From: a virus
Length of the DNA: 21,137 nt
Strand: one strand, 5' to 3'
Virus record (IMG/VR): IMGVR_UViG_3300037557_000649
Span: 1 to 21,137 of that record
The first letter of the stretch is position 1, and every line of letters starts with the position of its first letter. This document shows positions 957 through 8,367 of the stretch, in pieces. The notes beneath the pieces are model-generated. The model was not told where the DNA came from. It saw nothing but the letters and a program-made list of their open reading frames with translations, and searched no databases. Both the position numbers and the translations under genes were made by a program.

Positions 957-980
957 CAAGCTCCGAAAGGGGCTTTTTTT
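957..980 (+). terminator. Intrinsic terminator-like hairpin abutting terS
   Basis: Stem AAGCTCC (958-964) pairs with GGGGCTT (969-975) around a GAAA tetraloop, with one T-G wobble, and runs straight into a T tract ending at 980. The terS ATG follows at 982. The GGGG of the 3' arm (969-972) is also the only Shine-Dalgarno-like stretch for terS, so the hairpin could both stop transcription from upstream and hide the ribosome-binding site. It separates the upstream genes from the packaging module. Confidence 0.7.
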
Positions 981-981
981 G

Positions 982-1428
982 ATGGCGGATCGAGGTCCAG
1001 ATCGAGAACTCACGGTGAAGCAGCAGCGGTTTGTTGACCATGTGTGCAATCCAGATTGCCCTGACGCCTCGACTGCTGCTAAGCGCGCTGGGTATGCAAC
1101 AAAGTACGCAGACCGTCAGGCATACCAGCTCCTAGAGAACCCTAGAGTACAGGTTGCGATCGAGGCTGAGCGCGACCGCATCAAAGCTATGGTCTCCATG
1201 TCCGAAGAGGAAATCATCAGCACTCTGACGGAGCTGGCGAGGGGCAGCGAGGGCGCCGCGAGCCGTTTGAAGGCCCTGGATTTGCTTATGAAGTCCAAGG
1301 GAATGCTAAAAGACGTGCAACATCAACACGTTACCTACGATCACGCCGCCGCAGCAGAGCGCATCAACAACGCAATCGAGGCCGCCAGAGCTGACGACGT
1401 GATCGTGCCTCTACGCAAAACAGCCTGA
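982..1428 (+). CDS. terS: Terminase small subunit
   Basis: A 148-residue DNA-recognition subunit of the packaging motor, which selects viral DNA and hands it to the large subunit. The N-terminus 'ELTVKQQRFVDHVC' followed by 'AAKRAGYA', 'ADRQAYQLLENPRVQVAIE' is the typical Terminase_2-type helix-turn-helix layout (LT.KQ.RFV ... A..AGY ... G..LL.NP.V). The rest is helical, with an oligomerisation-like segment at about residues 65-110 and a short charged tail ending VIVPLRKTA. The frame is open upstream to TTG 841, but ATG 982 is chosen because family homology starts just after it and GGGG at 969-972 lies 9 nt upstream. The large subunit follows after a 0.2 kb structured gap. Alternative starts further upstream would add an unlikely Cys-rich segment. 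Confidence 0.9.
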   Translation: MADRGPDRELTVKQQRFVDHVCNPDCPDASTAAKRAGYATKYADRQAYQLLENPRVQVAIEAERDRIKAMVSMSEEEIISTLTELARGSEGAASRLKALDLLMKSKGMLKDVQHQHVTYDHAAAAERINNAIEAARADDVIVPLRKTA

Positions 1429-1638
1429 GATCAGTACCTTATCGGCCGGCACCTCCACGTAAGTGACTGATATCGTTAGCAAATACCGGCCGGCTCCACC
1501 TTAGTCCAGTCTGCGCCCTGGCCTGGTTCGTTGACCCCCCCCCTCGCGAGGGAGCGGGGGCAGCTGCTTTAGCTGCACTTGACCACACAATTCCACGCAC
1601 CATCGCGTGGCTCAGATACGCGATAGTGGATTTTTTTT
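1429..1638 (+). other. Structured non-coding gap between terS and terL
   Basis: No convincing gene is seen here. The region holds the CGGCCGGC repeats, a run of nine C (1535-1543) that merges into the perfect 12-bp palindrome CCCTCGCGAGGG (1541-1552), a GGGGG run (1556-1560), a GCAGCT/AGCTGC hairpin (1560-1565 and 1571-1576), and then the hairpin and T tract before terL. Gaps this long are unusual in this otherwise tightly packed module. It is a candidate for a packaging site or for control of terL expression. Confidence 0.45.
1443..1494 (+). repeat. Pair of CGGCCGGC direct repeats in the terS-terL gap
   Basis: CGGCCGGC occurs at 1443-1450 and 1487-1494. Each copy continues as [A/T]CC[T/A]CC, giving 14 nt with two mismatches, spaced 44 bp start to start. 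The core is itself palindromic, so the copies could also pair into a hairpin. The position beside the terminase genes makes a packaging-recognition role possible, but this is inference. Confidence 0.4.
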
Positions 1639-1640
1639 TT
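1592..1640 (+). terminator. Intrinsic terminator-like hairpin abutting terL
   Basis: The perfect 7-bp stem ATCGCGT (1602-1608) and ACGCGAT (1618-1624) has a 9-nt loop. It is extended by TCCAC (1592-1596) pairing with GTGGA (1626-1630) across a small internal loop. Ten T follow directly (1631-1640), and the terL TTG start begins within the last of these. The layout mirrors the element before terS. Any weak ribosome-binding bases for terL (GTGGA) would be inside the stem. Confidence 0.65.
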
Positions 1641-3036
1641 GATATCTGACGACAACCTGATGGCATTGAGGGCTGACCCAGCGCTGTTCGTACGCGCTGT
1701 CATCGGTGCTCAGCCGCAGCCCTGGCAGGTCCAGGCCCTCAACGCCGTGAGGGATCACCCCAGGGTCGCTATCAAGTCCTGTCATGGGGTCGGCAAGAGT
1801 GCCTACCTCAGTTGGCTGACGTTATTTTGGATACTCACACGGGTGCCGTCTAAGGTTCCGGCCACGGCGCCAACGCACCATCAGCTTTCCGACGTCCTTG
1901 CCGCTGAGACGCAAAAGTGGGCACGCCAGATGCCCATCGAGTGGCGCAACCTGCTGGAGTTTAAGAGTGATCAGATACGCTTAGGAGGTGCTGCCGACAC
2001 TGGCGTCTTTTACCGCGTGAGCCGGCGCGACACGCCAGTCGCGCTGCAGGGCTTCCACAGCCCCAATCTGCTGTTCGTTGTGGACGAGGCCAGCGCCATC
2101 GACAGTATAATTTTTGAGACCGCTGCCGGCTCGTTAAGTACCCCCGGGGCAAAAATGGTCATGTGCGGGAATCCCACGCAGACTCAGGGGTTTTTCTACG
2201 ATGCGTTTACGAAAAACGCAGCACGATGGCACACAATGACCGTGGGCCACGCGGACAGCTCGATGGTCGATCCAGACTGGGTCGAGCAGATGAGGCAGGA
2301 CTACGGCGAAGAAAGTGCGGTGTTCAAGATTCGCTGCGAGGGTCAGTTTGCCCAAGAAAGCGACGACACAGTTATCAATGCCGAGCTTGTCACGAGCTCT
2401 TTCGACAGAGACATAGCTGAGACCGACGATCCTGAGGTCTGGGGCCTCGACGTGGCCAGAGCAGGCAGCGATGCCACGGCACTAGTCAAGCGCAAGGGGC
2501 CGATCATCAAGGACATCAAGATCTGGCGAAACAAGGACTTGATGCAGACTTGCGGCATGGTCCTGCAGGAGTTCGAGAGCCTGCCCCCCAGCCTGCGCCC
2601 ACAGAGCGTGCACGTGGACGTGATCGGCATCGGTGCCGGCGTTTGCGACCGTCTCAGCGAGACCTTAGACTGCACTGTGCGTGGCATCAACGTGGCTGAA
2701 TCGCCGGCTCTGAAGACGCGCTTCCGACGCCTACGAGACGAGCTCTGGTTTTCCATGCGAGAATATTTCGAGGGGCGTGACGTACGATGTGTAGAAAGCG
2801 ATCAATTACTCGCGGAGCTGACGGCTCCACGATATGTCACGCTGAGCGACGGCAAGATCCAGGTCGAATCAAAGCCAGCCATGAAAAAAAGAGGGCACCC
2901 AAGCCCAGACTGTGCGGATGCTCTAGCCCTGACCCTGTCGGGTACGGCAGCAATGCTGAGCGCAGGGTCACGCGGAGGTTACGCGAGCGCATGGAACCGA
3001 CCTCTGAAACAGCCCAGCACTGAGTGGGTAGTATGA
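1639..3036 (+). CDS. terL: Terminase large subunit (ATPase-nuclease)
   Basis: A 465-residue packaging motor that translocates DNA into the prohead using ATP and cuts the concatemer. The ATPase part shows Walker A CHGVGKS (residues 48-54), Walker B LLFVVDEA (144-151) and the coupling motif CGNPT (176-180). The RNase H-like nuclease part shows GLDVARAGSDAT (269-280, Asp271), HVDVIGIGAGV (325-335, Asp327) and SPDCADALAL (422-431, Asp424 and Asp427), so all expected acidic residues are present and the length is normal. The start is uncertain: TTG 1639 keeps the conserved 'DDNL.ALR.DPALFV' region intact, while ATG 1660 would remove seven residues. Neither has a good ribosome-binding site, because the upstream sequence is a hairpin and T10 tract. 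The stop overlaps the next ATG (ATGA at 3033-3036). Confidence 0.95.
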   Translation: MISDDNLMALRADPALFVRAVIGAQPQPWQVQALNAVRDHPRVAIKSCHGVGKSAYLSWLTLFWILTRVPSKVPATAPTHHQLSDVLAAETQKWARQMPIEWRNLLEFKSDQIRLGGAADTGVFYRVSRRDTPVALQGFHSPNLLFVVDEASAIDSIIFETAAGSLSTPGAKMVMCGNPTQTQGFFYDAFTKNAARWHTMTVGHADSSMVDPDWVEQMRQDYGEESAVFKIRCEGQFAQESDDTVINAELVTSSFDRDIAETDDPEVWGLDVARAGSDATALVKRKGPIIKDIKIWRNKDLMQTCGMVLQEFESLPPSLRPQSVHVDVIGIGAGVCDRLSETLDCTVRGINVAESPALKTRFRRLRDELWFSMREYFEGRDVRCVESDQLLAELTAPRYVTLSDGKIQVESKPAMKKRGHPSPDCADALALTLSGTAAMLSAGSRGGYASAWNRPLKQPSTEWVV

Positions 3037-5366
3037 CTACATTTGAAGAGGCCATGCAGGCAGCGCGCCGGCGCCAGATGTCGCACAGCGTGGACCCAAC
3101 GATCGAGCGCGGTCAGCGCTCCGCGACTGATCTTATTAGGGGCGTTACTCTGGCCCCTGAGCGTCTCGTGGGCATGCCTGTTGATGTTGTCAACCAAGCA
3201 ATGGGCGGCCTTGGCCTGCCCATGTCTCAGAGGCCTGTCATGGGCTCCGACTGGCTCATTGAGAACAACCCGCTGCGCAGCCCGGAGAACATGCCCACGG
3301 GGTCAGGGGCTGAGATAGCCGGTGACCTCCTGGGCAGTGTGGTCGCCGACCCCTTTATCATTCCCGCCAAAGTAGCAGGCCTGATAGGCACTGGCCTTGC
3401 TGGCCTGGGATCTATCCGGCGTGTCAAGCCAACCAAATCCACTGAGCTTGAGAGCCTGCGAGGCAAGCCCGTTGACGAGGCCATCGAGATCGCTCGCGGC
3501 GAGCCCCACCTGATAAAGAGCGGTGATAAGGCTGAGGGGCTTTATGTCGGCGGCCCTCGCGATTTAAAGACCAAAAGAGCCTTAACCAATCTGCGCAAAC
3601 AGTTTGATGAATTTGTGGCTCAGGATACTCGCGGTTCAATGTGGTACGACAAGACGCGTAGCGACATTAACACGGCCTCTGGAGGCGACCGCAACGTCAA
3701 CGACTGGATCTCGGCTAATCAAGCACAGTATTCCGCTGGCGCTTCGCCCGAGCATGAGATTGCGTTCTCGATCAAGGACATGGCCGCAACGCTTGCCGGC
3801 ATGGATGCCACGCCGCGCTTTCCAGCTCAGCGAGCCGGCTCACGCTTAGCTGTGGCTATGAATGACCCTAGGGCACACCAACTCGGCACAAAAACTGGCA
3901 AATACGCCAAACTTATCAACCCCAACCAGGAGCTCCCGCCTGGTGCGACAGGCGTTAACGACTTTCGCCATGCGCGCAATTTTAAGTACACAGAGGCAGA
4001 TGGTTCCCCCCAGGGTGGGGCTCTGACCGAGGCGCAGCATCGTTTCCTCGACTACGAGACCGCCCTTGCCGTGGATCGAGCGAACAAGAACCGCCTGGGC
4101 GATCGCTCAAATTGGACAGGCGAGCAGCTGCAGGCAGCCCCTTGGGTGCGCCAGAAGGCCATGGCTATCCTGGAGCAGCGGCCGGCCATCCTGCAGAGAT
4201 ATATAAAGGCTGGCGTTCCTGAGAAGCGAGCAGCTGAGATGGCCTACGAGGATGCCTTCAGCGAGGCTGTTAAGACTGTCGGCGACTTCTATCCTAAGCA
4301 CGTGGCGTACGCCACGCACGAGGCCCAGCCAGGGTCTGTTGCGGCACGCACAGGTCATATGTCTCGGTCAGTTGATGCCAGCAACGCGCAGAGAGCAGAA
4401 TTTGCTGACGACCCAAGGAGCAGCTGGCGTCTGCCTGACGGTCGCGATGCCATATATTCTGGCCTGCGCCACAGGGGGCCGGCAGGCACCACCGGCGTAG
4501 CTATGCGGGTTTTGCCTAGCCAGGAAATGCAGGGCATATTCCCCACACCTGGTGGCGGCCCTTTGCAAACTAACCGTGGGGACGTGGCTAGGCCTTTGGT
4601 GGCCTTTGACACGGCAAAGGATGGCCTAAAAACCATTCCCCCCGCAGACAAGGCTCTGATCGAGGCCGGTGAGAGCGTGCGAGCCTATGGTGATGTGCAA
4701 GATGCGTCCGCCGCCCACAAGCACTGGACAGGCGGCCCTCCGGGCAAGTCACCCAGCCTGTTCACGCCATTAGACGGTCCGCTCACTCGCGACGAGATTC
4801 TAGGTGTGCGGGAGGGCGTCCGACGGCAGGCAGTCCTCGACCCGGTGCATGGCCTGCCTGAGGTGGTAGACACCGGTCAGGGCGTCACCGTGTCGAGTTT
4901 CTACCCAGAGGTGGGCCCGATTAGTAAAACTCCAAAGAAGGCCATGGGCCTCCTTGGCGAGGCAGTAGTGGACGCGCTTCCCAACCGCACAGGGCTATCG
5001 CCCAGGCGCACAAACGTGGACAGTGTCTACAGAGATTACACCGACGCCTGGGCTGCCGGCGAGGGATCTGAGGCTGCCACCAAGAGGATGCTGAAAGACG
5101 TTAACGCCACGCCTGAGATCAGGCAGGCCTTTGACGATAACCCACACCTTGCCCAAAAGGCCCTGGACCGTATTTCTCGGAACAGGGACTGGGAGAGCAG
5201 GTGGGGAGCCAGCCGCAAAGACGTGAACCGAGCCCTTGAGGAAATAGCAAAAGGGCCCGGTTGGATAGGCCGCCTGGAAGCCCTTATTGGGAAGGGGGTC
5301 CTTCCTGTGGCTCTTTTGGGGGCGATACTTTCAAACGTGGACGTGAAGTCCGAAGGATCGTCTTAG
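3033..5366 (+). CDS. Large polyvalent-type virion protein, function unknown
   Basis: A 777-residue protein starting at ATG 3033, which overlaps the terL stop as ATGA. The N-terminal 100 residues are Gly/Ala/Pro-rich with hydrophobic stretches (GDLLGSVVADPFIIPAKVAGLIGTGLAGLG), resembling the start of long ejection proteins, including the one at the right edge of this window. Residues about 230-435 form a distinct domain with 'KTGKYAKLINPN', 'NDFRHARNFKYT', 'LTEAQHRFLDYETALAVDRAN' and 'WTGEQLQAAPWVRQKA'. I recall this layout from large polyvalent phage proteins. The C-terminus ends with a possible membrane-active segment (GVLPVALLGAILSNV). No catalytic triad or protease motif is evident. Its place between terL and portal suggests a virion or ejected protein; this is inference. 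Its last 83 nt are antisense to a small minus-strand gene. Confidence 0.85.
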   Translation: MTTFEEAMQAARRRQMSHSVDPTIERGQRSATDLIRGVTLAPERLVGMPVDVVNQAMGGLGLPMSQRPVMGSDWLIENNPLRSPENMPTGSGAEIAGDLLGSVVADPFIIPAKVAGLIGTGLAGLGSIRRVKPTKSTELESLRGKPVDEAIEIARGEPHLIKSGDKAEGLYVGGPRDLKTKRALTNLRKQFDEFVAQDTRGSMWYDKTRSDINTASGGDRNVNDWISANQAQYSAGASPEHEIAFSIKDMAATLAGMDATPRFPAQRAGSRLAVAMNDPRAHQLGTKTGKYAKLINPNQELPPGATGVNDFRHARNFKYTEADGSPQGGALTEAQHRFLDYETALAVDRANKNRLGDRSNWTGEQLQAAPWVRQKAMAILEQRPAILQRYIKAGVPEKRAAEMAYEDAFSEAVKTVGDFYPKHVAYATHEAQPGSVAARTGHMSRSVDASNAQRAEFADDPRSSWRLPDGRDAIYSGLRHRGPAGTTGVAMRVLPSQEMQGIFPTPGGGPLQTNRGDVARPLVAFDTAKDGLKTIPPADKALIEAGESVRAYGDVQDASAAHKHWTGGPPGKSPSLFTPLDGPLTRDEILGVREGVRRQAVLDPVHGLPEVVDTGQGVTVSSFYPEVGPISKTPKKAMGLLGEAVVDALPNRTGLSPRRTNVDSVYRDYTDAWAAGEGSEAATKRMLKDVNATPEIRQAFDDNPHLAQKALDRISRNRDWESRWGASRKDVNRALEEIAKGPGWIGRLEALIGKGVLPVALLGAILSNVDVKSEGSS

Positions 5367-6225: not shown

Positions 6226-6276
6226 TGAAATACCATTCGGCGGCGGCGCCGAGACAGCCGGCGCGTTGGGTTGACC

Positions 6277-8367
6277 ATGCCTCTTGACGAAGCCGACATC
6301 CAGCGCATTGTCGCTGCCGAGATCGAGGCAGCCATTGGGTTTACTGACGACAATTTTCAGTCCAAAAGAGAAAAGGCGATCTCGTATTACCATGGCGAGG
6401 ATTTCGGCTCTGGCGCTCAGGAGGGCCGGTCGCAAGTCGTAATCACCGAAGTGGCTGACGCAGTGGAGACCGCCACGCCATCCCTCATGCGCGTATTTTC
6501 TGGAGCTGACGTAGTTACTATCCAGGCACGCAACCCTCAGAGTGTTGCCTACGCAGCTCAGGCCACCGACGTGTGTCGGTACACTTTTGAGCGTGAGCTG
6601 GGATTTGCTGGCCTAACCGGCCTGGTCAAGGATGCTTTGTTGTACGGCATGGCTGCCGTCAAATGTGTGTACCAGGATGAGGAGCGCGTAGAGGAAGAGC
6701 TGCACGAGGGGCTGAGCGAGCTGCAGCTTACGGCTCTTCTGGAAGACGACATGGTCGAGGTCTTGGAGCAGACGGTGCAGGTGTCGGCAGAGGTCGAGAT
6801 CGGCGAGCAGGATCTGCCTGTGGACCCGGCCACCGGCATGCCGGCTGAGCCACCCATGAGTTTCGACGTGCGCGTCAATCGCCGAATTATCGACAGCGGC
6901 GTGGTCTTGTCGCATATACCACCCAACGAGATTCTGGTCGCTGACGATGCGGTGACCGTCAAGTCCAGTCGGCTGATAGGCCACCGATCAAACCGCACGC
7001 TGAGCGAGCTTGTTGGCCTTGGTTACGACCTAGAGGAGCTTAAAGAGCATTCTGCGAGCGAAATCCAGGAGGGTCAGGAAGAGCGAGACCGATACCAGGA
7101 CGTGCGTGAGAGCAGCGCGTCAAACGCAGCCGATGAGAGCATGGCTGAAGTAGAGTACTGCGAGGTATACGTCAGGCTTGACGCCGACGAGGATGGCATC
7201 GCTGAGCTGCACCGTGTCTGCACGCTGGGCTCAGGCCATCATGTCCTGATGGACGAAGTCATCACGCACTGCCCAATCGTGATCGGCACTGTGATTCACA
7301 TGGGTCACAGATTGATCGGCAGAGGCATCGCAGAGCTCTTGTTCGACTGCCAGGAAATAAAGAGCAGCATCGTCAGGCAGCATTTGGATAATTTGTACGC
7401 GCAGAATAATTCCCGCACGATCGCGGTTGAGGGTCAGGTCCAGATGGACGACCTCTTAAGCGCAACCCCAGGCGGCATAGTCAGGGTCAGGCAGCCTGGG
7501 GCGGTGCAGCCGCTGCAGGTGGCGCCCCTGCAGGCTTCAGCATTCCAGCTGCTTGAATATGTGGACACAATGGCGGAAAACCGCACTGGGCTGCAGAACA
7601 GCGCCGGCCTCAGCCTCGACAAGCTGCAGAGTGTGTCTGCCATCGGCATCAATGGGGCAATGTCCCAGGCACAATCCAAAACCGAGATGATGGCCAGGAC
7701 GTTCGCCGAGACCCTGATCAAGCCAGTGTATCAGGCAATTTATCACCTGCTGCGCACGCACCAGGATCGACCCAAGATCATGAGATTGCGGGGCAGTAAT
7801 TTTGTCGAGATCGAGCCCAGCGCCTGGGACGAGAACGTAGACACCATGGTGTCTGTCGGTCTGGGCACTGCCGGCAACCACGAGCAGAGGCTGATGTTTC
7901 TTCGAGACGTGGCCGAAAAACAGACGGCAATGCTGACACAGCTGGGTCTGGACAACCCCATAGCGACACTGCCACAGCATGCCGAGGTGCTGCGCAGAAT
8001 GCTGCAGATTGCTGGCATCGAGGACACTGAGCTCATCGTCAATAGCCCTGAGAAAGTTTCTCAGCTGCAGCAGCAAATGGCTCAGAAAAAAGCTCAGGAG
8101 CAGCCGAAACCGAACCCACAGATGCAGCAGGCCTTGCAGATCGAGCAGGCCAAAGCGCAGGCAGAGATCGAGATCGAGAAACAGAAAGCGCAAGCTACCA
8201 TGCAGCTCAAGGCGCAAGCGCAGGCTCAGGAGCTGCAGCTGAAGCGTGAGAAAGCGATGGCGGACATCGAGATCCGGCGAGAGGAGATGGCTGCAGAGGC
8301 TCAGATGGAGGCTCTGAAGATCCAATATGACTTACCCGGCGGTGACGCCAACATTCCACGACAGTAG
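6277..8367 (+). CDS. Portal protein (P22-like)
   Basis: A 696-residue portal forming the dodecameric ring through which DNA enters and leaves the capsid. The N-terminus 'DEADIQRIVAAEIEAAIGF', 'KREKAISYYHGEDFG' and 'EGRSQVVITEVADAVETATPSLMRVF' matches the widespread P22-type podovirus portal layout, as does the length of about 700. Residues about 125-190 are acidic. A region near residues 380-470 contains the 'SIVRQHLDNLYAQNN' and 'NRTGLQNSAGLS' segments typical of the stem and wing. The last 100 residues are a Gln/Lys/Glu-rich coiled coil, probably the barrel. ATG 6277 is chosen over TTG 6271; the ribosome-binding site is weak. The Gln/Glu-rich end causes a long leucine-rich antisense shadow ORF. 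Confidence 0.93.
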   Translation: MPLDEADIQRIVAAEIEAAIGFTDDNFQSKREKAISYYHGEDFGSGAQEGRSQVVITEVADAVETATPSLMRVFSGADVVTIQARNPQSVAYAAQATDVCRYTFERELGFAGLTGLVKDALLYGMAAVKCVYQDEERVEEELHEGLSELQLTALLEDDMVEVLEQTVQVSAEVEIGEQDLPVDPATGMPAEPPMSFDVRVNRRIIDSGVVLSHIPPNEILVADDAVTVKSSRLIGHRSNRTLSELVGLGYDLEELKEHSASEIQEGQEERDRYQDVRESSASNAADESMAEVEYCEVYVRLDADEDGIAELHRVCTLGSGHHVLMDEVITHCPIVIGTVIHMGHRLIGRGIAELLFDCQEIKSSIVRQHLDNLYAQNNSRTIAVEGQVQMDDLLSATPGGIVRVRQPGAVQPLQVAPLQASAFQLLEYVDTMAENRTGLQNSAGLSLDKLQSVSAIGINGAMSQAQSKTEMMARTFAETLIKPVYQAIYHLLRTHQDRPKIMRLRGSNFVEIEPSAWDENVDTMVSVGLGTAGNHEQRLMFLRDVAEKQTAMLTQLGLDNPIATLPQHAEVLRRMLQIAGIEDTELIVNSPEKVSQLQQQMAQKKAQEQPKPNPQMQQALQIEQAKAQAEIEIEKQKAQATMQLKAQAQAQELQLKREKAMADIEIRREEMAAEAQMEALKIQYDLPGGDANIPRQ

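Follow-up and report, generated by a model that had tools for sequence, protein, structure and literature searches.

Sinorhizobium phage phiM5 carries a terminase large subunit (TerL) that, in a 2017 paper on that phage, was reportedly found to fit no established packaging group. Its genome (MF074189) is annotated with a 357-bp repeat, the first and last 357 bases being identical, and repeat and genome share a terminus that lies exactly 12 nt 3' of the hexamer GGGGGC, at GGGGGCAGCGCATATATC/TGCACCC (here and below, the slash marks the end). This hexamer closes an element made of a C-run and a G-run, and the gene that precedes it at the right end of phiM5 is terS, which encodes the terminase small subunit, so terS, element and terL follow one another in that order on the joined ends. 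For uncultured phages, contigs do not normally reveal where the genome ends. Here, we compare with phiM5 the terS-terL junction of a virus contig, in which the same element probably marks the packaging cut site and is flanked by two probable terminators of the ordinary kind, the position of the cut being predicted from the comparison.

Setting of the terminase genes

The window, by which we mean the whole stretch of DNA analysed, is a virus contig of 21,137 bases that was classed as linear and represents a 21-kb fragment. Its terminase region comprises:

982 to 1428, + strand: terS, terminase small subunit, 148 aa (PHROG 51, Pfam Terminase_2)
1429 to 1638, + strand: non-coding terS-terL gap of 210 bases, with no + strand open reading frame of 50 aa or more inside
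1639 to 3036, + strand: terL, terminase large subunit, 465 aa counted from TTG 1639; alternative start at ATG 1660

An SU10-type portal gene (6271-8367), a scaffold gene and an SU10-type capsid gene are also present in the window, and a 777-aa gene between terL and the portal gene (3033-5366) had no PHROG or Pfam match. A search for tRNAs returned none. Neither megablast among phages nor a scan for the portal pattern found close relatives; a TerL profile fetched 80 further viral contigs for comparison, with TerL 46-54% identical. A more distant TerL occurs in phages epsilon15 and phiCD27.

An element aligned with a known genome end

Two adjoining features of the gap are central to the comparison with phiM5:

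1534 to 1561, + strand: conserved element, A-C9-TCGCGAGGGAGC-GGGGGC (family form A-C7..9, a loop of ~13 nt, then G5..6-C-[A/G]-G)
1562 to 1580, + strand: stretch that aligns with the phiM5 physical end, with the predicted genome or repeat end at 1573/1574, AGCTGCTTTAGC/TGCACTT

The gap reads GACCCCCCCCCTCGCGAGGGAGCGGGGGCAG at 1533-1563, and at the same 12-nt distance as in phiM5 it continues as GGGGGCAGCTGCTTTAGC/TGCACTT, matching the phiM5 end in both position and sequence; from this alignment we predict a genome end at 1573/1574. Among carriers of the element, phiM5 is the only one with annotated physical ends. Contig breaks near the element were lopsided, eight contigs stopping within 40 nt on its 3' side vs one starting within 40 nt on its 5' side, an excess which fits a physical end but could be due in part to C-rich DNA being poorly assembled.

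In one contig, IMGVR_UViG_3300017735_000046 (34,264 bases), the element lies near both ends (L248:1-140 and the right end, L287) within an imperfect terminal repeat of ~140 nt, and the contig stops 17 nt after GGGGGC, pointing to a terminal repeat that was captured along with variation between strains.

Distribution of the element among TerL relatives

A version of the element was present upstream of terL in 56 of ~87 relatives (TerL 38-54% identical), 39 of them non-redundant. The strict pattern occurred in 48 of 84 upstream regions, vs 0-1 per shuffle, one with the reversed pattern and none on the opposite strand; about a third of the relatives were without the strict element. In most relatives, the G5..6-C-purine-G of the element is followed by an A/T-rich stretch and then CCC. 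In each of ten records the genome held a single copy, oriented like TerL, and the reversed control gave none; phiM5 has two, one in each copy of its terminal repeat. Within the 21 kb examined here, the element likewise occurs once, in TerL orientation and adjoining the terminase genes. In three relatives (L075, L077 and L105), ~330 nt upstream of terL, a C-run replaces GGGGG while the spacing and the A/T stretch are kept, and base pairing between the two runs is therefore not essential.

The distance from the element to terL is often 90-150 nt, and in many relatives it is 450-1400 nt, a whole gene or more. Extra genes intervene in seven relatives (L052, L054, L062, L113, L116, L117 and L123); where such genes could be named by eye from their sequence, in several relatives, they were methyltransferase-like, serine-recombinase-like or terS-like. 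In two others (L081 and L083) the element lies upstream of a terS-like gene, which shows that terS and element can occur in either order. The terS beside the element belongs to PHROG 51, 1482 or 2538 or to none of the families, with TerL constant throughout: the element is intergenic and tracks TerL, whatever the terS family.

DNA-only scans of 2.9 million viral contigs, using two patterns derived from family members, gave the same association. Among the matches listed, the first scan yielded at least 80 loci, of which 62 were followed on the same strand by this TerL, 13 lay on contigs that ended too soon and five were without it, placing this TerL family at 62 of 67 testable loci. The second yielded 43 loci (37 with this TerL downstream, five on contigs ending too soon, one without; 37 of 38 testable). 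Both scans together, again among the matches listed, gave 105 testable matches, 99 of them with this TerL family; some of the matches are training loci, but an element arising by chance would not give almost only this TerL family. Carriers are spread over deep branches of the TerL tree, with several losses or gains, and the three members nearest to phiM5 (L009, L012 and L304) are without the element. Cellular genomes held only two clear carriers (L289 and L300), and the element therefore belongs to this phage lineage rather than to distant prophages. A blastn search of the element region against phages returned only phiM5, C72C1 weakly, and chance matches, mostly to Mycobacterium phages. No description of such an element was found in the open-licence literature, which is weak evidence of novelty.

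An intergenic sequence that is unique per genome, lies beside an A/T-rich stretch and in some relatives adjoins a serine recombinase gene could act as a replication origin or as an att site for integration, and not as a packaging end. We consider this unlikely: the element accompanies TerL also in phages that have no recombinase close by, and in phiM5 it agrees to the base with the annotated end of the genome.

Two hairpins with T-runs

On either side of the element, sequence, folding energy and shuffles point to two probable intrinsic terminators:

958 to 980, + strand: hairpin (7 bp, GAAA loop) followed by T7, upstream of terS
1592 to 1640, + strand: two-part hairpin followed by T10, separating terL from the predicted genome end

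The first consists of AAGCTCC-GAAA-GGGGCTT (958-975) and a T7 run (974-980), with the terS start (ATG at 982) at a distance of 2 nt. In the second, an outer stem formed by TCCAC (1592-1596) and GTGGA (1626-1630) encloses an 8-bp stem at 1602-1624, T10 occupies 1631-1640 and the terL-frame TTG occupies 1639-1641, so the reading frame opens within the T-run. An earlier note on this DNA had drawn attention to both structures, and a check of the sequence bore out all of its coordinates as well as its statement that these are the two longest T-runs, no other run of T≥7 being present on the + strand of the window. It made no mention of the conserved element that lies between them. The terminator-like character that it assigned to both was also upheld, with folding energies of -9.5 to -10.1 kcal/mol for the terS hairpin and -14.9 kcal/mol for the terL hairpin. 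On the + strand, runs of T≥7 that follow a hairpin with a folding energy of -9 kcal/mol or lower numbered two, vs 0.08 expected per dinucleotide shuffle, and two together occurred in none of 100 shuffles; T10 appeared in one of 300. The pair is not due to chance. The 81-nt terL region as a whole was no more stable than its own shuffles (z -1.1).

Pairing of TCAGATA (1612-1618) with TATCTGA (1643-1649) gives an alternative fold of -16.4 kcal/mol, which is slightly better than the terminator fold once 1643-1649 is included and would take the place of that hairpin, but it is not significant relative to shuffles. We also considered translational coupling or frameshifting at T10, from sequence, and rejected it: the frame that opens at GTG-1607 runs into T10 and has its stop codon at 1640-1642, yet it lacks a ribosome site.

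The earlier note had gone further and proposed that the two structures form a matched pair which jointly attenuates transcription and blocks translation of terS and terL, possibly with relief by antitermination late in infection. Such a device would agree with the placement of both gene starts directly on a T tract, with the occurrence of the pair beyond chance in shuffles and with the competition between two folds at terL. It would also draw on the Shine-Dalgarno-like bases noted in the 3' arms; of these, AAAGGGG before terS is an acceptable match at 8-nt spacing, but GTGGA before terL is a poor one. The TTG at the end of the T-run is indeed in frame at 1639; as the start of terL, however, it is uncertain, the protein from the in-frame ATG 1660 aligning equally well. 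No antiterminator site was found, and Rfam covariance models gave no match, so no known structured RNA or riboswitch is recognised here. The two hairpins have no sequence in common.

The comparison of the same junctions in relatives speaks against a paired control of terminase levels, the hairpins being conserved at neither junction. A hairpin with T≥6 preceded terL at six of 89 loci, a count that includes the window, and terS at three of 37 other loci, and at looser thresholds the count before terL was 21 of 89 on the + strand vs 17 of 89 on the - strand of the same pieces, which is no real enrichment. Relatives with intact terS and terL thus mostly have no hairpin and T tract at these places, the outcome that the earlier note had itself named as contrary to its proposal. 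Strong terminators do stand directly before terL in L075, L077, L105 and L112 and before terS in L107, with unrelated sequences. Being rare and unrelated in sequence, the hairpins are read as terminators acquired independently, and we judge the matched pair very unlikely. Both elements are probably ordinary Rho-independent terminators, a form of insulation that would have been acquired repeatedly.

Proposed packaging mechanism

That the C-run/G-run element is an RNA hairpin regulating terL, as leader or terminator, with its closeness to the phiM5 end a coincidence, is highly improbable: its runs can pair and its distance from terL is often 90-150 nt, but many relatives have 450-1400 nt and a gene or more in between, which is evidence against a terL leader RNA, L081 and L083 have it upstream of terS, it has no T tract, and in some relatives the runs are unable to pair.

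The preferred reading of the element is that of a probable packaging cut site in the terS-terL junction. Within the concatemer, terminase would recognise the C-run/G-run element and cut ~12 nt to its 3' side, where the DNA of most relatives is A/T-rich. A few hundred bases upstream would then be duplicated to give a short direct terminal repeat, which in the window's phage would end near 1573, and the linear virion DNA would carry terL at its left end and terS at its right end. Transcripts of the upstream genes or operon would end at the terminator before terS. The terminator before terL, just outside the repeat, would halt transcripts that cross terS and the joined ends, and the terL-portal-capsid operon would thereby be shielded from read-through over those ends.

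More tentatively, there may be a large TerL lineage, mostly uncultured and producing short terminal repeats, for which the element is the site of both recognition and cutting. Because at least three different terS families adjoin the same element, its reader in that case would be TerL or another conserved partner. If true, a short DNA signature of this kind, marking the end and specific to one TerL lineage, would make it possible to orient many viral contigs, to trim them to their true ends and to assign a packaging strategy from sequence alone. A further question is how one site is maintained by terminases whose small subunits differ. The terminators on their own would be an ordinary finding.

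Comparison with known systems

In outline, the arrangement resembles the T7-type concatemer junction, which combines a fixed end with a duplicated short repeat, the duplication in the window's phage being the predicted counterpart. To our knowledge, the T7-type junction differs in belonging to a different TerL lineage and in having a different site sequence. LUZ24-type phages have a related virion structure (PMC10386132), and the 184-bp repeat of LUZ24 (NC_010325) ends at GGGGGGAAT/ATCCC, with a similar layout of G-run, A/T stretch and CCC; in the stretch examined (150-210), however, no A-C7..9-loop-G5-C element immediately precedes that end, and the likeness is a resemblance between different sites. 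Like Rho-independent terminators, the structures at 958-980 and 1592-1640 consist of a stem followed directly by a T-run, but the T tracts of the window run straight into the start of the next gene, which is unusually tight.

The closest counterpart is phiM5. There, terS lies 13 nt from the element, vs 105 nt in the window, and the end is annotated, whereas in the window's phage it is predicted by alignment. The two phages are alike in their TerL family (44% identity over 97%), in the order terS, element, terL, which in phiM5 appears on the joined ends, in the C-run/G-run element itself and in the aligned sequence at the cut, GGGGGCAGC...C/TGCAC.
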